From a virus, in the IMG/VR virus record IMGVR_UViG_3300034355_001172, positions 1 through 24,823 of that record: DNA of 24,823 nucleotides; one strand, 5' to 3'. Within the stretch, counting starts at the first letter, position 1. Every line of letters starts with the position of its first letter. This document shows positions 2,006 through 22,724 of this stretch, piece after piece. The notes under the pieces were generated by a model. The model ran no database searches, was not told where the DNA came from, and worked only from the letters and a program-made list of their open reading frames with translations. A program made the translations under genes and the position numbers.

Positions 2006-2560
2006 ATGACCTTAACGTTAGCACAGAAAAGAGAGTTAGCGACTGACAAGTTGGCAGTGATGACCGCCAAGATGGAAGAAGCTCGCAGCATAATCAGCGA
2101 ACTGGTAGACGCCGTCAAAGCCAATGCTGGTGAAGACGGTTCGAACATGAAGACTGGCAATCTCGCAGAGGCGTGCCGGTTGTACTTCTATCTCTCCGAG
2201 GAGTATGACCGCATGGACGATGTTCGTAAGAAGATCGGCATGCAACTAGAGCACATGTCGCGCGAGGTGATCCCGGAGATCATGTCCGAGGAGGAGACGT
2301 CCTCAATCACGCTCGAAGACGTCCAGCGTCGCTTCACCAAGTCAACCCGCACCACCGCATCGATGGCCGACAAAGAGGTCGCGATGGATTGGTTGCGCGA
2401 GATTGGCAAGGGCGACCTGATCCAACAGTCCGTCAATTCGAGCAGCCTGTCATCGTTCGCAAAGCAGTACATGATAGAGAACCAAGTCGAACTGCCCGAG
2501 TGCATCAAAGTCAACCATATGACGATCACGTCGATCAACAAGCTTAACAGAGGAGCGTAA
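2006..2560 (+). CDS. Phage protein of the recombination/replication region (184 aa)
   Basis: This 184-aa, largely helical and charged protein has a likely coiled-coil N-terminal half: residues 5-40, and 60-95 with heptad-like spacing. The C-terminal region includes the stretch WLREIGKGDLIQQSVNSSSL. Its position directly before a likely ssDNA-binding protein, with only four bases between stop and next start, resembles gene pairs in other phages where a coiled-coil partner sits beside the binding protein. That is a contextual inference; I cannot assign a named family. The start at ATG 2006 is supported by AGGGAG about 10 bases upstream and by promoter P5. Confidence 0.75.
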   Translation: MTLTLAQKRELATDKLAVMTAKMEEARSIISELVDAVKANAGEDGSNMKTGNLAEACRLYFYLSEEYDRMDDVRKKIGMQLEHMSREVIPEIMSEEETSSITLEDVQRRFTKSTRTTASMADKEVAMDWLREIGKGDLIQQSVNSSSLSSFAKQYMIENQVELPECIKVNHMTITSINKLNRGA

Positions 2561-2564
2561 CATC

Positions 2565-3392
2565 ATGGCTAATAAGAACGCGGTTGCAGAGGTCAAGGAC
2601 GGCGGTGTGCCGGCTTATCTCGCGGGCTACAAGGGCCCGGCCACCAACACGATGATGGAGAACGAGGACCGCATCGTCCCTCGCATGAAGCTGTTGCAGG
2701 CGATTTCGCCCGAGCTCAAGAGCTTCAATGAGGCGAAAGAAGGCGTCTTTTGGCACTCCATCCTCAATGAGTCGTTGGGTTCGGAGGTGCGCTTCGCCGT
2801 CATCATGGCGCGCAAATCGTACGTCCTGTTCGCCCCGCGCGGCGACGACCGCATGATCTTGGCCCGCTCTGCCGACGGCAAGACGTGGGACCGCCCGAAT
2901 GAGTCCTTCGAGGTGAAGATCAAAGGCTACGCCAAGCCCATCGAGTGGAACACGAAAGGTAGCGTCGTGGAGTCGGGTCTGGCCAATTTCGGCTCGTCCA
3001 TCCCCGGTGATCCGCAGTCGCCGCCGGCCGCTACGTTGGTCTACGAGTATCTGGTTTACTTGCCGGATTATCCGGACTGCAGCCCGGCCCTGATTTCGCT
3101 GAGCCGCAGCGGCATCAAGCGGGGTAAGGACCTGAACTCCAAAATCTCGCTGCGCGCGGGATCGGTGCCTCAGTTCGCCCAGCTGTACAAGGCGGTGGTG
3201 ACGAGCGAGCAGAGCGCTGAAGGTGGCTACAACGGTTGGTCGTTCAAGTCGGACGGCGTCGCTGACGAGGCTACCTTCAATACGGTTCTGGCGCTGGCGA
3301 AGAGCTTCGAAACGACGAGCTACCGCGCGTCTGACGAAGACATGAGCGACGAGGCGACGGCCGCTCCGGCGGATTCCGGCGGCGCGTACTAA
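2565..3392 (+). CDS. Likely ssDNA-binding/recombination-associated phage protein
   Basis: The product is 275 aa. A globular, beta-rich core (about 30-230) is followed by a flexible acidic end (ASDEDMSDEATAAP) of the sort that recruits partners in ssDNA-binding proteins such as T7 gp2.5 and bacterial SSB. The region LQAISPELKSF with VFWHSILNES resembles phage proteins commonly annotated as ssDNA-binding or recombination-associated, but I cannot confirm homology here. AGAGGAG upstream of ATG 2565 is a good ribosome binding site. The neighbours are a coiled-coil protein before and the DNA polymerase after. In this phage it would act on Z-containing DNA during replication, if the role is right. 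Confidence 0.65.
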   Translation: MANKNAVAEVKDGGVPAYLAGYKGPATNTMMENEDRIVPRMKLLQAISPELKSFNEAKEGVFWHSILNESLGSEVRFAVIMARKSYVLFAPRGDDRMILARSADGKTWDRPNESFEVKIKGYAKPIEWNTKGSVVESGLANFGSSIPGDPQSPPAATLVYEYLVYLPDYPDCSPALISLSRSGIKRGKDLNSKISLRAGSVPQFAQLYKAVVTSEQSAEGGYNGWSFKSDGVADEATFNTVLALAKSFETTSYRASDEDMSDEATAAPADSGGAY

Positions 3393-3481: not shown

Positions 3482-3697
3482 ATGGCCAAGCGCCTCACCT
3501 ATATTCAGAACTATGATGGCAACCGTGGATGGGTCCTAGAGCCGTTCACCGACGAAGACCACAAGTCCGGCGACTACATTTTCCTTTGCCAGCACTCGGA
3601 TGGCAACGCCACCGAGCTTGACATCGTCAAGATTCCTCGTCACCTGTGGGATAAGCTGGTGAATGAAGTGAACGAGAAGATGAAGGACTTCAAATGA
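3482..3697 (+). CDS. Hypothetical small protein before dpoZ (71 aa)
   Basis: This 71-aa protein begins MAKRLTYIQNYDGN. A longer in-frame reading from GTG 3401 would run through the two hairpins, so ATG 3482 is preferred, with GGAG at 3469-3472 as ribosome binding site. The sequence alternates beta-like segments with an acidic patch (FTDEDHKSGDY) and ends in a Lys/Glu-rich helix. Its stop overlaps the polymerase start (ATGA, 3694-3697), so it is probably translated with the polymerase. No family is recognised, so a link to polymerase function is only positional. Confidence 0.65.
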   Translation: MAKRLTYIQNYDGNRGWVLEPFTDEDHKSGDYIFLCQHSDGNATELDIVKIPRHLWDKLVNEVNEKMKDFK

Positions 3698-5568
3698 CTA
3701 CATCACTCGGTGACCGGGTGGATGGGGCTCTGCGCGCTGTCGCAAAGTCTCCCGTCATCGCCTACGACGTAGAGACCAGTGGAGTGGATTGGAGGCGGAA
3801 TGCGGTTGTTGGTTATGTCATTACTGTTGATGAACAGTCTAATTGGTACATCCCCGTGCGCCATGGTGGCGGAGGAAATCTACTCGATGGAGCGCCTCTC
3901 ACCGACGCAGTCGTTCCTCGACCCATGCCCGTCCACCCCTTCGAAGAGGCCCTCGCCCGAGCCTTTTCCGAACGTAACCGACGAGGATACGTTACGGTGG
4001 GCCATAACATTAAGTTCGACGTTCACCTATCCGCTAACCACGGGGTCATGCTGGGACGGAACCTTAACTGTACCCAAATAACCGAGGCCCTGATCGACGA
4101 GTACGCCGGCTCCTACAGCCTCGACGCCTGCTGCAAGCGCCATGGCGTGACGGAGAAGAAGGGCGACGCGCTCTACGCCCACATGGCTCAATTGTTCGGG
4201 GGCGAGCCCGAGCGCAAGATCATGCAGCACTTTTGGCGACTGGCCGGCGACGACGCTGTGGCGGTGGACTACGCCATGGGCGACGGCACGTCTACGCTCG
4301 ACCTGTGGCGCAGTCAGGCCGAAGACGTCACGGCGGAGGACAAGGACGGTAAGACGCTGGAGAACATCTTTCGCCTTGAGAACGAGCTGATATGGACCGT
4401 TTTTCGCCTTGAGCGCATCGGCATGAAGGTGGACGAAGGGCGACTGGATTGGGCGTTCCGGGAGGTCAAGCGCTTGGTGAGCGAGGCCCGCGCCGACGCC
4501 GGCTTCGATGAGTCATTCAACGTCCGGTCCACCTCCGCCGTGAAGGACTGGCTGATCTCGAAAGGCGTCGTGGACTTTCCTCGCACTGAGCCCACCGCTC
4601 GCTTTCCGGACGGCCAGATTTCGATACGAGCGAAATGGCTGGAGGGCCATGCAGTGGGCCAACCAGTCGTGGCGATTCGCAACGCGCTCGATCTGGAGTC
4701 CAAGTTCTTATCACCGCTCAAGGAGCGCCACCTGTTCGAGGGGCGCGTTCACGCGTCGCTGAACCAACTGAGGCAGGACGACTATGGCACCGTCACGGGC
4801 CGTTTTTCGTGTAACGAACCGAACCTTCAGCAAATCTCTAAGCGTAATAAGAAGCTCGGCAAGATCCTTCGTTCGGTGTTCGTGCCGGACGAAGACAAGA
4901 TCCTGTACGAAGCGGATTACAGCCAAGCGGAGCCGCGCACTTTCGCTCATTACACACAGAGTCCCAAGATCATGGAGGGTTACCTCCGAACTCCGTTCGT
5001 GGATATGCACTCGGTGGTGGCGCAGGAATTGGGCGTAGATCGTGGCACCGTTGGCAAGCGCCTGAACATGGGCATGCTTACGGGGCTGGGCCCGACTACT
5101 CTGGCCGAACATATGGAGTGGCCGGTGGCGAGGGCGCGCGAGGTCTGGGACTGGTACATGACTAAGTTCTTTCCAGAGCTCAAGCAGTTCCATGGCAACG
5201 CCAGTAAGATATATAAGAGCCGGGGCTTCGTGCGCACGATGCTCGGCCGGCGTTGCAATCTGAAGGACCCCAAGTTCGCCTACCAAGCGGTGAGCCGGAT
5301 CATTCAGGGCTCGGGTGCCGACATCATCAAGTACAAGCTGCTAGAGGCCGACAAAATGTGCGAGGCCGACGGCGACGAGGTGAACGTCATCATGACCATT
5401 CACGACTCTTTCGTCTTTCAGGCCCCGCCCGAGAAGCAGGAGTTTGTGGACCAACTGATCGCTCGCATGAGCTCGGTTCAAGAGGACCCGTTCAACATGA
5501 GGGTGCCCTTCCTCATGGACGTTGGCAAGGGCGAGAATTGGGCTATCGCATCGTATGGAGACAAGTAA
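3694..5568 (+). CDS. dpoZ: DNA polymerase, family A, DpoZ type, with 3'-5' exonuclease
   Basis: The 624-aa enzyme copies the phage genome. The N-terminal DnaQ-like proofreading domain is intact: Exo I D25 and E27 (AYDVETSG), Exo II N105 and D109 (GHNIKFDV), Exo III Y193 and D197 (YAMGD). The polymerase domain has motif A DYSQAEPR (D408, E413), motif B K455 and G464 (GKRLNMGMLTG), and motif C IHDSF (H570, D571). There is no 5'-nuclease domain. The O-helix positions that are Phe and Tyr in Pol I (762, 766) are Met459 and Thr463 here. In Z-genome phages with PurZ, a polymerase of this family (DpoZ) accepts Z opposite T. The dpoZ name here follows from co-occurrence with purZ, datZ and mazZ. Start ATG 3694 overlaps the previous stop. 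Confidence 0.93.
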   Translation: MTTSLGDRVDGALRAVAKSPVIAYDVETSGVDWRRNAVVGYVITVDEQSNWYIPVRHGGGGNLLDGAPLTDAVVPRPMPVHPFEEALARAFSERNRRGYVTVGHNIKFDVHLSANHGVMLGRNLNCTQITEALIDEYAGSYSLDACCKRHGVTEKKGDALYAHMAQLFGGEPERKIMQHFWRLAGDDAVAVDYAMGDGTSTLDLWRSQAEDVTAEDKDGKTLENIFRLENELIWTVFRLERIGMKVDEGRLDWAFREVKRLVSEARADAGFDESFNVRSTSAVKDWLISKGVVDFPRTEPTARFPDGQISIRAKWLEGHAVGQPVVAIRNALDLESKFLSPLKERHLFEGRVHASLNQLRQDDYGTVTGRFSCNEPNLQQISKRNKKLGKILRSVFVPDEDKILYEADYSQAEPRTFAHYTQSPKIMEGYLRTPFVDMHSVVAQELGVDRGTVGKRLNMGMLTGLGPTTLAEHMEWPVARAREVWDWYMTKFFPELKQFHGNASKIYKSRGFVRTMLGRRCNLKDPKFAYQAVSRIIQGSGADIIKYKLLEADKMCEADGDEVNVIMTIHDSFVFQAPPEKQEFVDQLIARMSSVQEDPFNMRVPFLMDVGKGENWAIASYGDK

Positions 5569-5837
5569 TGGCCAGTGAATCACGCAATCCGGAAGCTCGT
5601 GAAGCCATCGATTTGGCTATTGAGCATTTGAATGAAACGGTAGACATTTTAATGTGGCTACACGATTGGGACAACGTTGAGTGTTCGACGCTGATGCAAG
5701 CCGATGAACTACACGGGTTACTGATGAGCATTCTGGCCAACATGCCGGACGCGCTCGACAGGTCAACCAAGAACGTACTCACCCGTTTGGCCCAGCAAAA
5801 ATCGGGCCTAGCTCATGGTCGTCGTTGGAGGGACTGA
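5568..5837 (+). CDS. Hypothetical helical protein (89 aa)
   Basis: The ATG at 5568 shares its first base with the polymerase TAA (TAATG), and the TGA at 5835-5837 shares one base with the next ATG, so the gene is tightly coupled on both sides. An upstream extension of this frame runs antiparallel in composition to the polymerase codons and is discarded. The 89-aa product is acidic and predicted all-helical (residues 8-65), ending in a basic tail (HGRRWRD). I do not recognise it. Position alone suggests an accessory to replication. Confidence 0.6.
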   Translation: MASESRNPEAREAIDLAIEHLNETVDILMWLHDWDNVECSTLMQADELHGLLMSILANMPDALDRSTKNVLTRLAQQKSGLAHGRRWRD

Positions 5838-6097
5838 TGGCGTTTAAGAAAGAATGGATCGAAATAGAGGGCACCATCGAGCGCCAAACGGAGAAGGCCA
5901 TGTTCTTCTTTCGTTCGGACCTTGAAAAGCCGGAATGGTACCCTAAGTCGCAACTGGAGATCGTCAGGGAGTCCACCCCTGACGACCCTCTCACCATCCT
6001 GCGCGTGACCAAGTGGATATATGATCAAAAAGAGCAGGAACGAATAGAGAAAGCGAAGGCTGATGAAGGAGCTGGACTTCCAAAAGAAGGTTATTGA
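5837..6097 (+). CDS. Small phage protein with WYPKSQ motif (86 aa)
   Basis: The pattern of this 86-aa protein (EIEGTIERQTEKAMFFF, then EWYPKSQLEIV) is like small phage proteins that carry a T-x-K-A followed by W-x-P-K-S-Q. They are common beside replication genes and usually annotated as hypothetical. GGAGGG at about 5827-5832 precedes ATG 5837 by a good distance. The C-terminal third is a Lys/Glu-rich helix. It overlaps the VRR-NUC gene by 35 bases. The beta-rich core could be an OB- or SH3-like barrel, but that is a guess. Confidence 0.65.
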   Translation: MAFKKEWIEIEGTIERQTEKAMFFFRSDLEKPEWYPKSQLEIVRESTPDDPLTILRVTKWIYDQKEQERIEKAKADEGAGLPKEGY

Positions 6098-6542
6098 CCT
6101 TATTCGCGAAGAGGGGGGTTACGGGTACAAGCTCTCCAACCGTTTCAAAGTGGGCATACCTGACCTCCTCATCGCTGCTCCGATGAGGGGCGTTGTGTTT
6201 TTTGAGTGTAAGTGTTTAAACGATGTGCCGGCGCAATTTGACAAAAAGACCGGCATCACGCCCATTCAGCAGGAGCACCTCAATAAGCTTAATTCGACCC
6301 AAGAGCACCCTATTGGCTGCCAGTTGGTGTTCATGGTTCACAAAGGCGAAGAGAGGGCGGTGGTGTGGCCGGCGCATTGGGACAGAATAAACTCGGACTA
6401 CGAAAGGGACGAAGCGCTATGGGTAGGAAGACAGCCAAGATCAAGGGGCCGGTGGAACGTGATGAAGCTCGTGGAGGCGGTCAGACTGACGAGATCGGGG
6501 CGATTCTCGCAGAGCGTGGCAACACCCATGGAGATTTCGTAG
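6063..6542 (+). CDS. VRR-NUC domain nuclease
   Basis: The product is 159 aa. Residues 1-106 form a VRR-NUC (PD-(D/E)XK superfamily) nuclease: an N-terminal helix with E3, the core GIPDLLIAAP with D34, and FFECK with E48 and K50. Stand-alone VRR-NUC proteins of phages are typically about 90-130 aa and are thought to cut branched or recombination intermediates. The last 50 residues (after WPAHWDRINS) are Arg-rich, look unlike the family and overlap the next gene by 124 bases in another frame. They may be a run-on extension after loss of an earlier stop. The catalytic residues appear complete. Confidence 0.85.
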   Translation: MKELDFQKKVIDLIREEGGYGYKLSNRFKVGIPDLLIAAPMRGVVFFECKCLNDVPAQFDKKTGITPIQQEHLNKLNSTQEHPIGCQLVFMVHKGEERAVVWPAHWDRINSDYERDEALWVGRQPRSRGRWNVMKLVEAVRLTRSGRFSQSVATPMEIS

Positions 6543-6745
6543 TTCAGGCTTGGGTGGCGCAGGAACTTAAGGCTTGCGTCGAAAACGGGCCGAACTGGAT
6601 CCTGATGACCGCTGACAAACGCGAAGCCATTCACATGATCTTGCACAAGGTCTCGCGCGTCGTGTGTGGCAACCCAGACTTCAAGGACACATGGGACGAC
6701 ATTCAGGGTTATGCTCGCCTGATATCCAACAAGCTATCCGACTGA
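6419..6745 (+). CDS. DUF6378-like phage protein (108 aa)
   Basis: The core reads ILAERGNTHGDF, then about 30 residues later ADKREAIHMILHKVSRVVCG, then DTWDDIQGYARL. This is the pattern I associate with DUF6378, a small helical phage protein of unknown function found beside nucleotide and replication genes. ATG 6419 is chosen (AAGGGA at 6404-6409). An alternative GTG at 6452 would shorten the 124-base overlap with the nuclease, but more than 90 bases would remain. It is the last gene before promoter P2 and purZ. The His/Asp/Glu-rich helices recall all-alpha NTP pyrophosphatases such as MazG, but I would not call it one. Confidence 0.75.
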   Translation: MGRKTAKIKGPVERDEARGGGQTDEIGAILAERGNTHGDFVVQAWVAQELKACVENGPNWILMTADKREAIHMILHKVSRVVCGNPDFKDTWDDIQGYARLISNKLSD

Positions 6746-6750
6746 CTACT

Positions 6751-6778
6751 TTTACAACGCGTTACAATGTGCTATAAT
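6751..6778 (+). promoter_or_regulatory. Strong sigma70-type promoter P2 driving purZ
   Basis: TTTACA (6751-6756), a 16-base spacer ending TGC (extended -10), then consensus TATAAT (6773-6778). It begins six bases after the previous stop. Transcription starting near 6785 would give a very short leader with AGGAGG (6787-6792) five bases before ATG 6798. This is the best promoter match in the window and implies high purZ expression. Confidence 0.75.
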
Positions 6779-6797
6779 CAGCGCATAGGAGGACCAT

Positions 6798-7862
6798 ATG
6801 CCATTTAAATTCAGCGCCAGCAGCATCGAAGACGCCTTATATGAAGACGGGTGGTTCGCCAAGGGGGCCCATTTCATCGTGGACGGCCAATACGGCTCGA
6901 CCGGCAAAGGGGCTCTGGCGGCGGTCATCGCCCGCGCCGGCCGACGCGACATCGAAATATACGCCACCAATGCCGGCCCGAATTCGGGTCACACCGCCGT
7001 ATTAGGTGCGGCCAAGATCGTCACCACGCAGTTGCCGGTGGGCGCGGCCGTGGCGAAGCTCCTGCCGGGCCCGCAGTTCGACGTCTACCTTACGGCCGGC
7101 GCGATCATATACCCCAAGATGCTGCAGAAAGAGGTCGAGGAATTTGGCGTCGTGCCGACCATCCACCCGTGCGCGGCCATCATCGAGGCGCACCACGTCG
7201 AGCAGGAGCAGAGCAACGGCTCTTCGAAAGTCGCCGGCACGGCCAAAGGGGTGGGCGCGGCGCTGGCCGACAAGGTCAACAGAGAGGGCAACCTTTGGGG
7301 CCGACAAGACGTCTGGTACGGTTATAGCGGCGTATTGGATCTGGCTAACCGGTGCGTCCTCCACGAGTCAGCGCAGGGGTTTTCACTGGGCGTCAATGAG
7401 GCCCTTTTCGCTCCTCACACAACGAGCCGCGAGTGCACGGTGCAGCAGGCCCTCTCCGACGCCCGCATCCCGCTTAGTCAGGTCCACAAGGTGGCGATGA
7501 CGCTGCGTACGGCACCGATAAGGGTCGGAAATACGCAGGTGGGCTACAGTGGCGATTTCTACGACGACCAGAAAGAGACGTCGTGGGAGGAGCTTGGCCT
7601 TCAGGAGGAGTACACCACCGTCACTAAGCGCGTGCGTCGCGTTTTCACGTGGTCGTGGTCGCAGTTCGTCGACGCGCTGCGCGTCAATGAGCCGGACCTG
7701 CTCAACATTAACTTCATGGACTACCTGAAGAAAGAGGAGCAGGAGCCTTTCGTCCGCGCCGTCATCGCCAAGTATCAATCGATCCTGCCGCACAAAGGCA
7801 TGCCGACGGTGCTTTGCGGATTTGGTCCTGACATCGAGCACATGGGGGTGTGGGTTGACTGA
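6798..7862 (+). CDS. purZ: PurZ, aminoadenylosuccinate synthetase
   Basis: The 354-aa enzyme belongs to the PurA/PurZ family. In PurA the P-loop is GDEGKGK; here residues 33-38 are GSTGKG, so the catalytic Asp is Ser34 and the following Glu is Thr35. This is the accepted signature of PurZ, which uses dGMP rather than IMP and, with aspartate and NTP, makes N6-succino-2-amino-dAMP. The catalytic His is kept (NSGHT, H65). Other family blocks are GTAKGVGAALADK (about 147-159), ESAQGFSL in place of the PurA EGAQG loop, HTTSREC and KRVRRVFTWS. At 354 aa it is shorter than bacterial PurA (about 430), as in phage forms. AGGAGG and promoter P2 precede it. Host PurB and kinases would complete dZTP. Confidence 0.95.
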   Translation: MPFKFSASSIEDALYEDGWFAKGAHFIVDGQYGSTGKGALAAVIARAGRRDIEIYATNAGPNSGHTAVLGAAKIVTTQLPVGAAVAKLLPGPQFDVYLTAGAIIYPKMLQKEVEEFGVVPTIHPCAAIIEAHHVEQEQSNGSSKVAGTAKGVGAALADKVNREGNLWGRQDVWYGYSGVLDLANRCVLHESAQGFSLGVNEALFAPHTTSRECTVQQALSDARIPLSQVHKVAMTLRTAPIRVGNTQVGYSGDFYDDQKETSWEELGLQEEYTTVTKRVRRVFTWSWSQFVDALRVNEPDLLNINFMDYLKKEEQEPFVRAVIAKYQSILPHKGMPTVLCGFGPDIEHMGVWVD

Positions 7863-7875
7863 CACAGACGAATTG

Positions 7876-8064
7876 ATGGTAAAGGGCGTCCCTATATGGG
7901 TGCTGGATCCTGAGGCGAACATCACCGTTCGCGAAATGGCGGAGATCCTACGGGGTCTTCGCATTATGGCTAAAGGTGAAAAGACGCTGGAGCGGTTTCA
8001 CCGCTCTACGCATCGCCATTTTAAGAGGATGAACAATGGAGACCAAGCTAATGATGTACAGTGA
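7876..8064 (+). CDS. Small unknown protein between purZ and mazZ (62 aa)
   Basis: From ATG 7876 this is a 62-aa basic protein. TTG 7855, whose frame overlaps the purZ stop, would add seven residues, and TTG 7822 is less likely. No start has a strong ribosome binding site, so translation may depend on coupling with purZ. The middle (ITVREMAEILRGLRIMAKG) looks helical, followed by a His/Arg-rich segment (RFHRSTHRHFKRM). It overlaps mazZ by 29 bases. I recognise no family. Its place inside the Z cassette makes it a candidate accessory gene, but no function is visible. Confidence 0.5.
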   Translation: MVKGVPIWVLDPEANITVREMAEILRGLRIMAKGEKTLERFHRSTHRHFKRMNNGDQANDVQ

Positions 8065-8365
8065 AAAAGACCAAAAAGCCGCTCAAGCTATAGTAGACGC
8101 CATCGATGCAGGAAATGTGGCCGCCATGGTGCGGCCCGTTCTGGCTGATTTTGCCGTTTTGATGGAGGCCAAGCTTCAGAAGAACGACCACAAAACCAGT
8201 TGGACTAACCTGCCGGTCGAGGCTCTTTTTCGAATGCTGACGCTGGAGATCGAGGAGTTCAAGGTGGCACACGAATTCCTCGGACCCGACGAGGCGATGA
8301 AAGAACTGGTGGACGTCGCCAACTATTGTATGATCCTTCACGACCGACTGAAGAAGCTGAAATGA
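8036..8365 (+). CDS. mazZ: MazZ, MazG-like (d)GTP pyrophosphohydrolase
   Basis: The 109-aa all-helical protein has the MazG-family metal motif: ExxE at E71-E74 (LEIEEF) and ExxD at E90-D93 (ELVDVANY). In Z-genome phages a MazG-type enzyme, MazZ, hydrolyses dGTP (and GTP) to dGMP and pyrophosphate, supplying the PurZ substrate. That assignment here comes from family plus position between purZ and datZ; the sequence itself proves only the MazG fold. AGAGG about eight bases before ATG 8036 supports the start. The stop overlaps the next ATG (ATGA, 8362-8365). A general housekeeping MazG role is the alternative. Confidence 0.87.
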   Translation: METKLMMYSEKDQKAAQAIVDAIDAGNVAAMVRPVLADFAVLMEAKLQKNDHKTSWTNLPVEALFRMLTLEIEEFKVAHEFLGPDEAMKELVDVANYCMILHDRLKKLK

Positions 8366-8625
8366 GCGACAACGACATCGGCATGGCCGTACTCCAAGCG
8401 TGCATCGAATTCCAAATCACCATCAGTAGGTTGACCGAGGGAATGAGCGACGAGGATAAGGCCATGGTGAAGGTCAAGGCCGCCTTGCACATCGGTTGTT
8501 TCCCATTAACGTCGGTGGAGCAAAGCGAATGGCCACGCATGAAGAAGTTCATGCTTGAGAACCTCGCTGAGCGCATCGATCACTTCATGGGGTTCGCTGG
8601 CACTGACAACATGACGGGGCACTGA
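8362..8625 (+). CDS. Small unknown protein between mazZ and datZ (87 aa)
   Basis: ATG 8362 overlaps the mazZ stop; a longer reading from 8326 lies inside mazZ and is rejected. The 87-aa acidic, helical product includes LQACIEFQITISRL (about 10-23), MSDEDKAMVKVKAALHIG, and a C-terminal MENLAERIDHF-like segment with several Met. The stop is one base before the datZ start (TGATATG). I do not recognise it. Its conserved-looking position in the Z operon suggests it could work with MazZ or DatZ, but there are no catalytic residues I can name. Confidence 0.6.
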   Translation: MSDNDIGMAVLQACIEFQITISRLTEGMSDEDKAMVKVKAALHIGCFPLTSVEQSEWPRMKKFMLENLAERIDHFMGFAGTDNMTGH

Positions 8626-8626
8626 T

Positions 8627-9190
8627 ATGGATGACACTTGGTTGCTGGGGCGCTTCGAGCGCAATCTGGCTGACATTCGCCGCTGGTCAATCGTGCGCAC
8701 GACGCGCGAGCAGTCGGTGGTGGAGCACTCTTTTTACGTGGCCCTGATGGTGCCGCGCCTGCTGCGCCAGTATGGCTTCGAAGACCCGCAAATGTTGCTC
8801 GACGCCACGCAATACGCGCTGCGCCATGATATGAGCGAGGTCCTGACGGGCGACATCGCCACGCCTATCAAAAAGCGCTTGCCTGAGGGGGCGTTCACCA
8901 TGATGGAGATGGAATTCGGCTTTCCACCGGAGGAGATCGACCCAATCGTCCAGCAGGCGGTGAAGGTGATCGACCTTTTCGAAGCGGCCGCCTTTTTGGC
9001 CGAGGAGATCGCAATTGGCAACTCCCGCGTCGTAGACGTGCAACGCGTCATCAAGTACAAGCTCGAAAAGGCGTGCGTGGCGTTCGAAAAAGCGGTTGGC
9101 AAAAGCGACGGTCTGTATCGCGTGATGAGCACCGTATTATACCACTTGCAGTACTCCATGGTCGATCCGCTGGAGCCAGACTTGTCCTGA
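8627..9190 (+). CDS. datZ: DatZ, HD-domain dATP triphosphohydrolase
   Basis: This 187-aa HD phosphohydrolase is close in layout to E. coli YfbR. Metal ligands are H34 (VVEHSFYVA), H67-D68 (ALRHDMSEVLTGD) and D116 (VKVIDLFEAA); E71 and D76 are also in place. The length and spacing match DatZ of Z-genome phages, which strips dATP to deoxyadenosine so that A is kept out of phage DNA. The segment RRWSIVR places W20 and I22 near the start; as I recall, in cyanophage S-2L DatZ equivalent residues shape the base pocket that excludes 2-amino purines. A general 5'-nucleotidase is the alternative, but beside purZ and mazZ DatZ is much more likely. Confidence 0.93.
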   Translation: MDDTWLLGRFERNLADIRRWSIVRTTREQSVVEHSFYVALMVPRLLRQYGFEDPQMLLDATQYALRHDMSEVLTGDIATPIKKRLPEGAFTMMEMEFGFPPEEIDPIVQQAVKVIDLFEAAAFLAEEIAIGNSRVVDVQRVIKYKLEKACVAFEKAVGKSDGLYRVMSTVLYHLQYSMVDPLEPDLS

Positions 9191-9232: not shown

Positions 9233-10645
9233 ATGTCTTATCGTTGGATGCTCAATGGCTCGCCGCGCCCGGTGCAAATCGAGGCGCTCACTAAATCGTA
9301 TGGCCATAAGGGGTGGGGCCACTGGTTGGAGATGCGACTTGGCAAGACCGCCACGGCGCTCAACGAGTTTGCGCAGTACATTCACGATTTCGACATGCGA
9401 TACATGGTGGTCTTGGCCCCTAACAAGTTCAAGCCTGACTGGATATTGGCGGCTCAAAAATGGGGCCTGCAAGTGCCGTTGCACGAATTCAATTCGTCCG
9501 ATGAAAAAGCGCTCACCAAGTTCTTGAAGGACAACGCGCACGGCATGATCGCCGTGAACTACGAGGCGCTCACGTACAAGAAGAATTTCGACGTGATCAA
9601 GCAGGCATGTGGTCCGCAGACCTTTTTGGTGGCCGACGAGTCGATCAAGCTCAAGAACCCTAGCAGCACCACGTACAAGAATGCCTTGCGCCTGTCGAAA
9701 GAATGCGGCTTCAAGCGCACGCTGTCTGGCAAGCCGTTGACGCAAGGCGCGCAGGACCTATACGGCCAGCTGCGCTTCATGGGCGAATTGAACGGTTGGG
9801 AGTACGCGTTGTTTAAGGCGGCTTTTTGTATCATGGGTGGATACATGGGCAAAGAAATCATCGGCACCAAGAACGAGCCGCGCCTGCGCGAAATCCTCGA
9901 CCGGTGTTCGTTCACGGCCCGCAAAATCGACTGGATCGAAGGCTTTGAGAAGCCTGATTATTCGACCCGTCGCGTACGCCTGAGCAACGAGCAGGCCACA
10001 ATGTATGCCCAAATGCAGAAGGATTTCGTGGCGCTCATCAAAAACGGGGCCATGATCACCGCCGAGCAGGTCATCACTAAGCTCATCAAGCAGATGCAAA
10101 TAGCGTCTGGCTTCATCATCGACGACAACGGCAACGCCCACGACATCGTGCCGCCCAAGGACAACCCGCGCATCCTTGCGGTGCGCTCCATCCTTGAGGA
10201 CGAGCTAGACACCAAGCTCATCATTTTCGCTCATTATCGCCATTCCATCAGCCTGCTTGAAAAGGCGCTGGCCGACTTTAATCCAGCCCTTATTCGCGGG
10301 CAGGCGAACGACGTGATCGAACAAAAACGCAAGTTCAACGAGGACGAGACATGCCGGGTGCTCATTGGCCAGATCGACGCGTCTAAGTACGGCCACGAGC
10401 TCATCGGATCCGACAAGTCGCCGTGCCTCACCACGGTCTTTTACGAATCGACATACAGTAATGACGCCCGGTCTCAATGTGAAGAAAGGAACCAGTTTGG
10501 AGATCGAGTGCGTCCATTATCCATCATAGACTTGTCGTCTACCGACTTAGATGATACAATCATACGAGCCCTACAGAGAAAAGAAGACGTAGCTTCTATG
10601 ATTCTAGGGTATAGCCGAGAAACCGGGATATTACCCCATGTCTAA
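9233..10645 (+). CDS. SNF2-type superfamily 2 DNA helicase/translocase
   Basis: The 470-aa protein has the SF2/SNF2 set: motif I MRLGKT (K38, T39), motif Ia VVLAPNKFKPDW, motif II ADES (D135, E136), motif III LSGKPLT (165-170), and a C-terminal RecA-like domain ending in a motif VI form QCEERNQFGDR instead of the usual QxxxRxxRxGQ. It is smaller than cellular SNF2 proteins and typical of phage-encoded SNF2 helicases that sit beside polymerases and nucleases. Expected roles are replication, recombination or DNA packaging support. Promoter P3 drives it. From about 10440 to its end, codon use shifts toward A/T-rich and AGA/AGG codons, like the HNH gene that overlaps its last eight bases. Confidence 0.9.
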   Translation: MSYRWMLNGSPRPVQIEALTKSYGHKGWGHWLEMRLGKTATALNEFAQYIHDFDMRYMVVLAPNKFKPDWILAAQKWGLQVPLHEFNSSDEKALTKFLKDNAHGMIAVNYEALTYKKNFDVIKQACGPQTFLVADESIKLKNPSSTTYKNALRLSKECGFKRTLSGKPLTQGAQDLYGQLRFMGELNGWEYALFKAAFCIMGGYMGKEIIGTKNEPRLREILDRCSFTARKIDWIEGFEKPDYSTRRVRLSNEQATMYAQMQKDFVALIKNGAMITAEQVITKLIKQMQIASGFIIDDNGNAHDIVPPKDNPRILAVRSILEDELDTKLIIFAHYRHSISLLEKALADFNPALIRGQANDVIEQKRKFNEDETCRVLIGQIDASKYGHELIGSDKSPCLTTVFYESTYSNDARSQCEERNQFGDRVRPLSIIDLSSTDLDDTIIRALQRKEDVASMILGYSRETGILPHV

Positions 10646-11147
10646 GACATGTAAAAGGTGTAAAACGGAAAAAAACGACAACGAATTCGCAAAAGGTCAA
10701 GTTTGGTGTAGGAAATGCAAAGCAGATTACAGTGTTGGGTATTATTCTCGCCCACACGTTAAGGCTAGGCAGGCCGCACACAGCAAACACCACCAAGCTA
10801 AATCGCCTAGGCATGGGTTATTGATAAGACTCATCAAAGCACTGAAAAGGAAGCCTACATCAAATCCTGTAACCATCGATGAGATAATGGAAATGTGGAA
10901 TCGCCAAGGAGGCAAATGTGCCTTGACGAATTTGCAAATGGTATGGGGCGGCGATGGAAATGGAAACCACAAAATTAGGCCACATTCTGTATCCATAGAC
11001 AGAATAGATAACAACGAGGGATACACACTGCAAAACGTCAGGCTTATATGCCACGCTATTAATTCATTCAAAGGAAGCATGACTGACGATGAAATGAAAG
11101 AGATGGCTAGGCATCTAATTGACGATCCCATCTCTAATGTGTTATAA
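10638..11147 (+). CDS. HNH homing-type endonuclease
   Basis: The product is 169 aa. The N-terminus carries a zinc ribbon (CKRC at about 5-8 and CRKC at about 24-27). The C-terminal half carries the HNH core: GGKCALTN, then HSVSIDRIDN, then YTLQNVRLICHAIN. Such free-standing HNH enzymes in phages are usually mobile elements that nick or cut intronless alleles. Start ATG 10638 overlaps the helicase stop by eight bases. Codon use is markedly more A/T-rich than most of the + strand, which fits recent acquisition. A second enzyme with a similar zinc ribbon is at 22236-22724. Promoter P4 begins within its last codons. Confidence 0.88.
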   Translation: MSKTCKRCKTEKNDNEFAKGQVWCRKCKADYSVGYYSRPHVKARQAAHSKHHQAKSPRHGLLIRLIKALKRKPTSNPVTIDEIMEMWNRQGGKCALTNLQMVWGGDGNGNHKIRPHSVSIDRIDNNEGYTLQNVRLICHAINSFKGSMTDDEMKEMARHLIDDPISNVL

Positions 11148-12589: not shown

Positions 12590-13186
12590 GTGTCTCAATT
12601 AAGCGCTCAAAGCATCAAGAAGCTGTGCCAACCGACCAAATGGTGCGGATTGATGAAGCAACAACCGATGATCGTCCCATTCGTGGGTGAGAAAACGGTG
12701 GTCAATGGCAAAAGTTATGGCCTGTCTGCCGCCAGTTATGACGTTCGCATTGCGCACGACGTCATACTTGGGCCCGCCCCGTCGTACGTTTTGCGTAATA
12801 TGTTACAATACAGCAAAGGCATGCCAGTGGCTGGCACCATAGAAGGGTGGCGCGACAATATGAAGGGCTACCCTCCAAATCACGCTCTGGCGCACACGAT
12901 TGAGGACTTTTACATTCCGCACAACGTCGTTGGATATGTGTGCGACAAGTCCACCTATGCCCGCATTTTCGTTTCAGCGTTCAACACTCTTTTCGACCCC
13001 GGATTCTGCGGTAACGCCACGCTGGAGCTCGTGAACCTAAGCGACAAGATCGTCAGCATCAAAGCCGGCGACCCTATTTGCCAATTCACGTTCCACTGGC
13101 TCGACCGCAAAACAGATAGGCCCTACAATGGCAAGTACCAGAACCAAACCAAAGCCGCACACCCCGCAAGGTTTGAAGGCGTCTGA
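12590..13186 (+). CDS. dcd: dCTP deaminase-like (DCD/dUTPase family) enzyme
   Basis: GTG 12590 is the start, set by a perfect AGGAGG six bases upstream. The 198-aa protein follows the DCD/DUT trimer fold: SAASYDVR (47-53), IPHNVVGYVCDKSTYAR (109-125), FDPGFCGNATLELVNL (135-150) and AGDPICQFTF (159-168). S121, R125 and E146 match the Ser, Arg and Glu used by E. coli dCTP deaminase, so deamination of dCTP to dUTP is likely. A dUTPase activity cannot be excluded. It would feed dTTP synthesis. DCD-like enzymes are also found in phages with altered bases, so a modified substrate is possible. The 3' end overlaps the GcrA-like gene by 59 bases. Confidence 0.85.
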   Translation: MSQLSAQSIKKLCQPTKWCGLMKQQPMIVPFVGEKTVVNGKSYGLSAASYDVRIAHDVILGPAPSYVLRNMLQYSKGMPVAGTIEGWRDNMKGYPPNHALAHTIEDFYIPHNVVGYVCDKSTYARIFVSAFNTLFDPGFCGNATLELVNLSDKIVSIKAGDPICQFTFHWLDRKTDRPYNGKYQNQTKAAHPARFEGV

Positions 13187-13610
13187 CTTCAAAGATAAGA
13201 TCCGCGACGACATTAATGCCGGCCGCACGTATGGCGAAATAGCCGACGAAATCGGCATAAGTCGCAGTTCTGTGGCCGGAATGGTGGGCCGACTCAAAGT
13301 ATTGGGCGAAATCACCTACACAAACCCGGCAAAGAGCATGGGCAAACGCTTGGCCCCTGCAAAACGCGTGACGGCGCTTAGACGTCCGCCAAAAGTGGTT
13401 GTGGACGTCAGTTCGATCACGCCACTGGAGGTGGACCTTTTGGATCTTGGACATCGTCAGTGTAGGTATCCTGTTCGCAGTCACGGATCAAGGCATTGGT
13501 TCTGTGGTTTGCCGACTGACGAGATGGCTTCGTATTGCTCAGCACACGACCACATCACGCGCGTTCCGTCTAAGATAAACATTAAAAAGACCGGCCATTA
13601 TAGGGGATGA
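13128..13610 (+). CDS. GcrA-like transcriptional regulator
   Basis: The 160-aa protein has an N-terminal helix-turn-helix (RTYGEIADEIGISRSSV, 33-49, then GMVGRL), a variable basic linker, and the GcrA C-terminal block LLDLGHRQCRYPV with FCG and YCSAH. C112, C126, C137 and H140 are in the conserved spacing. GcrA of Alphaproteobacteria binds sigma70-RNA polymerase and acts at promoters carrying N6-methyladenine in GANTC. A phage version would be expected to steer host or phage transcription. The start is uncertain: ATG 13128 has no strong ribosome binding site and overlaps dcd; TTG 13171 is the alternative. The stop overlaps the lipoprotein start. Confidence 0.85.
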   Translation: MASTRTKPKPHTPQGLKASDFKDKIRDDINAGRTYGEIADEIGISRSSVAGMVGRLKVLGEITYTNPAKSMGKRLAPAKRVTALRRPPKVVVDVSSITPLEVDLLDLGHRQCRYPVRSHGSRHWFCGLPTDEMASYCSAHDHITRVPSKINIKKTGHYRG

Positions 13611-22235: not shown

Positions 22236-22724
22236 TCAACAGCTCCAAGCCATGCGCAAATCTTTTTCAGGCAGGCGATTGTGTTTACGTATATTATCAC
22301 ATGCAGGAATTACCCGCAAATTCCAAGGCACGTGTAAACCGCTAAAATCCCGGCCTTGTAACGGGTGAATGTGGTCAACATGGTAGTCAGTTCCAGTAAT
22401 GTCGCTTAAACAGGCTGCCACTTTGTAATACCAGTTTATGATTTCTTCGTGGTTTTCATTAAGCCACAACGGAGTAGCATTTAACTTGGTAGCCCTCCGC
22501 TTGGCGTTTTTGTGTGCTATCCGACCTTTGTTGCGAGACTCCCACATTGGCCTATACGTGACTATGTAACTTTTGAAGTAAGAGTCATCGGATTTTCGCC
22601 TTTCTAATTGCCGACGCGAATTACACGCCTTGCAATAAGGCATTTTACCATCTTTTGCCGAGGACTTTTTGTGAAAGTCCGTTAAAGGTTTTTCAACGTT
22701 GCACTTAGTACATGTCTTAGTCAA
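22236..22724 (-). CDS. HNH homing-type endonuclease with zinc ribbon
   Basis: The 162-aa protein has an N-terminal CxxC...CxxC zinc ribbon (CTKCNVEK, CKACNSRR) and a basic middle. The HNH core DYHVDHIHPLQG ends at NLRVIPACDNIRKHNR. It resembles the other HNH enzyme (10638-11147) in its first 35 residues (T/SKTCxxCxxEK). Its sequence is more A/T-rich than the flanking virion genes, which suggests insertion as a mobile gene between the acetyltransferase and the large virion gene. The start overlaps the previous stop (ATGA at 22721-22724), and the stop is one base from the next ATG (TGATATG), so insertion preserved translational coupling. Confidence 0.9.
   Translation of the reverse strand: MTKTCTKCNVEKPLTDFHKKSSAKDGKMPYCKACNSRRQLERRKSDDSYFKSYIVTYRPMWESRNKGRIAHKNAKRRATKLNATPLWLNENHEEIINWYYKVAACLSDITGTDYHVDHIHPLQGRDFSGLHVPWNLRVIPACDNIRKHNRLPEKDLRMAWSC

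Follow-up and report, generated by a model that had tools for sequence, protein, structure and literature searches.

A predicted vB_OspP_OH-type 2-aminoadenine cassette and a possible third lineage of Z polymerase in a virus genome fragment

The virus genome fragment analysed here (IMG/VR record IMGVR_UViG_3300034355_001172, positions 1 to 24,823; all 24,823 bases are referred to as the window) encodes, on the + strand and in frame between positions 3694 and 9190, a family A DNA polymerase, a PurZ homologue, a MazG-like protein of the MazZ-2 type and a DatZ homologue, all with intact catalytic residues. As a whole, and including the reading of the polymerase developed below, the region is probably best explained as a complete cassette for 2-aminoadenine (Z) of the type found in the Ochrobactrum phage vB_OspP_OH (hereafter OH), set into a conserved replication module. 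The homology makes the identity of the Z cassette close to certain, chance is far too weak to explain its gene matches, a Z pathway in this phage is well supported, and substantial Z in the virion DNA appears likely. More tentatively, with slightly less than even confidence, we propose that the polymerase belongs to a third, widespread lineage of Z polymerases in which the near-universal Tyr766 (Klenow numbering) and usually Asn845 are replaced by Thr and Ser. An initial annotation of the window had recognized the same four genes on one strand, and all four are indeed present with strong matches, as follows.

3694..5568, + strand: family A DNA polymerase with 3'-5' exonuclease (624 amino acids), third lineage found with PurZ
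5068..5070, + strand: codon of Met459, equivalent to Klenow Phe762 and phiVC8 DpoZ Leu455 (Met in 55/68 of the lineage)
5080..5082, + strand: codon ACG of Thr463 in the O helix, equivalent to Klenow Tyr766 and DpoZ Phe459
5293..5295, + strand: codon AGC of Ser534, equivalent to Klenow Asn845 and DpoZ Gly548
6798..7862, + strand: PurZ, succino-aminodeoxyadenylate synthetase homologue (dGMP + Asp)
8036..8365, + strand: MazZ-2-type nucleotide pyrophosphohydrolase
8627..9190, + strand: DatZ, HD-domain dATP triphosphohydrolase homologue

The PurZ homologue matched PHROG 1211 (4e-56) and the NCBIfam PurZ model (1.8e-63), and its top PDB matches were the PurZ structures of phiVC8 and S-2L. The GSTGKG motif that had been seen in a PurA-family protein lies at residues 33–38, and where PurA has its catalytic Asp the protein retains the PurZ Ser; the GHT and TTVT motifs are likewise kept, as is the dGMP-pocket Val beside the sugar. 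In the PurZ tree it groups with PurZ rather than PurA, and the genes beside T-type polymerases form one clade (support 98), the same split as in the polymerase tree. A PurZ search on plasmids gave no match. The top-ranked NCBIfam models for the two large proteins of the window are those of PurZ and DpoZ, but both scores fall below the curated cut-offs (214 against 300 bits for PurZ, 310 against 500 bits for the polymerase), which points either to divergent members of these families or to groups that are sister to them.

Active sites were compared with those of 11 reference phages, using published residue lists (PMC8342488, PMC8065100, PMC8599892). The MazG-like protein, which sits between purZ and datZ, has the pattern LExxE...ExxD, in agreement with the ExxE/ExxD signature first reported for it; the four MazZ-2 acids (E, E, E, D) are all aligned and conserved, and a hidden Markov model iterated from this protein recovers the MazZ proteins of OH, ZP6 and phiVC8 (96, 63 and 57 bits, respectively). 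The HD phosphohydrolase, rightly described as having a DatZ layout, matched PHROG 7076 (dATP triphosphohydrolase, 1.5e-25) and DatZ in the PDB (8.6e-09), and every listed metal-, phosphate- and base-contacting residue is retained (in S-2L numbering, R19, W20, I22, H34, H66, D67, E70, D75, P79, K81, K116 and D119 are identical), including the Trp20 and Ile22 that in S-2L DatZ shut out ribonucleotides and the 2-amino group. Judging from homology and the intact residues, MazZ would convert dGTP to dGMP, PurZ would join dGMP and aspartate, and host enzymes would complete the triphosphate of Z (dZTP), while DatZ would destroy dATP and the polymerase would place Z opposite T.

The polymerase (Pfam DNA_pol_A, 8.9e-54; exonuclease, 3.4e-08) retains the HD catalytic pair, the residue at the Glu710 position of Klenow and, as the initial annotation held, an intact exonuclease (D25, E27 and D109), and its predicted AlphaFold model is Klenow-like over the whole length (predicted local distance difference test (pLDDT) score, 91). 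The gene had been called dpoZ; its product is indeed a family A polymerase encoded beside purZ, but not a DpoZ in the known sense, as it has neither Phe459 nor insertions 2 and 3. At the O-helix site of the family A Tyr (that is, Klenow Tyr766), phiVC8-type DpoZ has Phe459, which is described as the sole mutation common to both known DpoZ clades; the crystal structure study found no single cause of Z preference (PMC8599892). Membership of the phiVC8-like clade was rejected on several features: Thr463 stands at the Phe459 position (Ser in OH), neither the window nor OH has finger insertions 2 and 3 (the window has 1 and 3 residues at these sites, compared with 7 and 19 in phiVC8-like DpoZ), Met459 and Ser534 occur instead of Leu455 and Gly548, and the 310 bits given above, which were scored against NCBIfam DpoZ_1, are under its cut-off of 500. 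The Wayne-like clade was likewise rejected, with Thr rather than Phe in helix O and 17 bits against the DpoZ_2 cut-off of 350. These features make it very likely that the polymerase represents a lineage outside both described DpoZ clades; the lineage is apparently undescribed, the literature check having extended neither to the first DpoZ papers nor to the supplements of the 2026 survey, so that mention elsewhere is possible.

Scans of IMG/VR and GTDB genome contigs yielded 146 distinct polymerases, with the polymerase of phiJL001, a known non-Z relative, lying outside this collection. At the Tyr766 position, the window lineage (n = 68) has Thr in 65 members, Ser in two and Asn in one, all 22 phiVC8-type polymerases have Phe, and all 65 polymerases without PurZ have Tyr; at the Asn845 position, the window lineage mostly has Ser. 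The 65 non-Z polymerases have 26 columns with ≥98% conservation. Two of these columns are lost in the window lineage and three in the phiVC8 lineage; Tyr766 and Asn845 are the only columns that the two lineages have both lost, and by simple counting such an overlap would arise by chance with a probability of about 3/325 (0.009). Loci that were fetched via PurZ are PurZ-positive by design; a subset of 71 loci came from the A3 scans, the patterns of which involve no part of PurZ or of the O helix, with short contigs set aside. In this subset, PurZ accompanied every one of the 27 non-Tyr polymerases (Thr or Phe) and a single one of the 44 Tyr polymerases (43 without PurZ). By count, the link between residue and PurZ appears striking, and the co-occurrence with purZ points to a polymerase that may select dZTP over dATP.

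Protein phylogenies had been suggested at the outset; those built for PurZ and the polymerase placed the PurZ homologue among its namesakes and, for both proteins, set the window apart from the phiVC8-type clade. A careful polymerase tree built with the trait columns removed united the window lineage and four Tyr polymerases (L124, L135, L138 and L199) in one clade (100/100), with the phiVC8-type clade separate (100/99). A single origin of all non-Tyr polymerases that leaves out these Tyr sisters was rejected (approximately unbiased test, p = 4e-69), whereas neither a single non-Tyr origin that includes them (p = 0.28) nor a single T/S/N clade (p = 0.10) was, and the data are thus compatible both with independent gain and with one origin followed by reversion to Tyr. 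Three of the sister phages (L124, L135 and L138) share the window's order of gp34-like gene, polymerase, nuclease and helicase, with no DUF6378, PurZ, MazZ or DatZ gene between nuclease and helicase and no PurA-family gene found in the whole contigs (51–66 kb), and their polymerases have Tyr and Asn at the two positions. The Z genes thus appear to move as a block, with the two polymerase residues changing along with them, and these sister phages, together with the changed-residue lineage, provide natural test pairs.

How might these residues contribute to the choice of Z? While Klenow is open, its Tyr766 is stacked against the template base; in the closed enzyme this residue pairs with Glu710 to set the geometry of the nascent base pair (PMC4882331). 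Ser at this position gives an open, error-prone enzyme (PMC3121766), and Asn845 is thought to probe the shape of the terminal pair (PMC3347538). We suggest that Thr, Ser or Asn at 766 and mostly Ser at 845, with Glu710 kept, would weaken the geometry check, and that closure of the site would then lean on base-pair strength: the three-bond Z:T pair would close, whereas the weaker A:T pair would be a poor substrate and would more often be passed to the strong exonuclease. Such closure by pair strength agrees with the pair-stability idea put forward previously (PMC8599892). We regard it as plausible, although at somewhat less than even confidence, that Tyr766 and Asn845 are the main basis of Z choice; if so, selection of Z over A would hinge on these two residues, and exchanging them should reverse the preference. 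A lineage that alters the same residue in a different way offers a testable clue to the cause of this preference in polymerases, and it also supplies new starting enzymes for making Z-DNA.

Several observations weigh against this interpretation. The PurZ pocket differs in Ala50 (Ser here), Gly130-Ser131 (Ala-Gly) and Gln308 (Asp), most of these changes being common to OH; Asn845 is retained in 9 of 67 members of the window lineage; and the link between residue and PurZ is not formally significant on the tree because there are only 2–3 independent pairs. One locus, L196 (6920–10271), has a PurZ0-like gene (GSEGKG) beside a polymerase with Tyr766 and Gln at 845, although it is distant from the window lineage. 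Furthermore, a Tyr-to-Phe mutant of Taq works on normal DNA (PMC8599892), and loss of the Tyr is thus not proof of Z preference. The literature examined gave no measurement of Z for OH.

The composition of related cassettes bears on how far the polymerase may act by itself. Among 73 distinct PurZ loci with the downstream helicase, both MazZ and DatZ occur in 37, MazZ but no DatZ in 30, and DatZ with no recognized MazZ in 6. Nine of the DatZ-less records (24–45 kb) were searched as whole contigs and gave no match to the DatZ profile or the HD_3 family, whereas the profile matched in 6/6 control records; the DatZ-less records keep the same polymerase. A large group of putative Z phages (approximately 40% of the loci compared) would thus be without DatZ, and in many of these relatives the polymerase itself would, if our proposal is true, exclude A. 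In four of the 37 loci with both genes (L064, L074, L089 and L137), MazZ is found not after PurZ but upstream of the polymerase module, and the first three of these have Gln at polymerase position 762. PurZ-like proteins in which the nucleotide loop is altered (GSEGKR and GSESKR) and NSGG substitutes for N(A/S)GH occur in L202 (10406–11359; a gammaproteobacterial metagenome-assembled genome) and L213 (5571–6716; Desulfobulbus), respectively, with Phe-type polymerases and DatZ as neighbours.

Other explanations of the cassette differ mainly in the part they assign to the polymerase. Z-DNA might be made by an unselective enzyme, with Thr or Ser tolerated because Z:T is strong and with DatZ and MazZ purging A from the pool. 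S-2L excludes A through its nucleotide pool while using an unselective PrimPol (PMC8065100), the window phage does have DatZ, and the mutator behaviour of Klenow Tyr766 mutants would fit a position that is simply relaxed (PMC3121766). However, the same polymerase is kept in the 30 of 73 loci and the nine whole records from which DatZ is absent, and Thr in 65 of 68 is less variation than a relaxed position would be expected to show. We therefore consider this alternative rather unlikely, although it is the strongest of those considered. Less probable still is that substitution is partial (that is, mosaic A/Z DNA) or that the cassette mainly drains host dATP and dGTP: expression of the S-2L cluster in Escherichia coli gave partial replacement (PMC8342488), but the co-occurrence of PurZ with a changed polymerase is conserved, and the purZ phages studied are reported to be fully substituted (PMC12884076).

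A third reading takes the PurZ homologue for an ordinary PurA that acts on inosine monophosphate, in a cassette that merely raises adenine nucleotides. The PurA-family fold and some pocket residues unlike those of phiVC8 and S-2L PurZ would fit such a role; the retained Ser, TTVT loop and dGMP-pocket Val, the position of the protein in the tree and the adjoining mazZ and datZ genes do not, and we consider it extremely improbable.

The cassette is embedded in a module that also comprises the following genes.

2006..2560, + strand: Pam3 gp33-like protein (DUF7307), opens the conserved replication module (Pfam 3.2e-26; same position in related loci)
2565..3392, + strand: Pam3 gp34-like protein, second gene of the module (Pfam 9.7e-32; conserved polymerase neighbour, also in sisters without the Z block)
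5568..5837, + strand: small open reading frame (ORF), function not assigned, absent from the related loci compared
5837..6097, + strand: small conserved ORF, PHROG 8389 (no assigned function), in 94/146 PurZ loci
6063..6542, + strand: nuclease, PHROG 93 endonuclease, in 117/146 PurZ loci
6419..6745, + strand: DUF6378 protein, predicted four-helix bundle, start codon uncertain
7876..8064, + strand: small ORF, no assigned function, peculiar to this phage
8362..8625, + strand: small ORF, no assigned function, peculiar to this phage
9233..10645, + strand: SNF2-type helicase, closes the module (Pfam 1.3e-12; same position in OH and relatives)

The DUF6378 gene listed by the initial annotation is real: the Pfam match is weak (4.1e-05, under the cut-off), the PHROGs match is clear (1.5e-20), and the gene also occurs in relatives. 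By Pfam it was found in 12 of 14 T-type records, compared with 1 of 14 Tyr records without PurZ, and it could thus be a further gene of the Z cassette. A fold search of its predicted model (pLDDT 88) against the PDB gave no confident match, and nothing was found in support of a MazG-like role, which was also considered.

The suggestion that the gene order might be a distinct arrangement falls, because, leaving aside additional small ORFs, the order in OH is identical to that in the window, and dozens of IMG/VR contigs share it (polymerase, nuclease, DUF6378, purZ, mazZ, datZ, helicase). In OH (a Wolominvirus; PMC7139368), gp33/gp34-like genes, polymerase, a small ORF, nuclease and DUF6378 are followed, as in the window, by purZ, mazZ, a small ORF, datZ and helicase, and then by structural genes on the opposite strand. 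The two phages are nevertheless divergent (41% identity for the polymerase, 45% for PurZ); megablast of the window against phages gave no match, OH included, and the window has extra small ORFs as well as GcrA and dCTP-deaminase-like genes. The OH paper names an adenylosuccinate synthase, a pyrophosphatase and a nucleotidase, and neither aminoadenine nor a Z pathway (PMC7139368).

Compared with the better-known systems, the window shares PurZ, MazZ-2 (phiVC8), DatZ and a family A polymerase with replaced Tyr766 and Asn845 (there Phe and Gly) with phiVC8 and SH-Ab 15497, but falls in other polymerase and PurZ clades and is without insertions 2 and 3, Phe459, Leu455 and Gly548. The active-site residues of PurZ, MazZ and DatZ match those of cyanophage S-2L, which instead has PrimPol and MazZ-1. 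PurZ0 phages (Wayne and Ghobes, with Huckleberry in the comparison) likewise combine a PurZ-type synthetase with Ser and a family A polymerase, but have DutZ and DmtZ in place of DatZ and MazZ, and a Wayne-like DpoZ with Phe (PMC12884076).

Outside the module, the window encodes a protein with a DnaA C-terminal DNA-binding domain (1086–1493; Pfam 4.9e-16) that was not found in related loci, and two ORFs, one per strand (10638–11147 and 22236–22724), that by eye resemble free-standing HNH-type endonucleases, although a Pfam search of the former gave no match. A dCTP deaminase/dUTPase-family protein (12590–13186) is absent from relatives within the compared stretch; in PurZ0 phages, the dUTPase relative DutZ breaks down dATP and dGTP. 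A homologue of the cell-cycle regulator GcrA (13128–13610; Pfam 1.1e-15), also present in L079, L080, L081 and L085, points to an alphaproteobacterial host. GcrA reads GANTC with methylated A, and this motif is depleted in the window (51 seen, compared with 93 expected from base composition).

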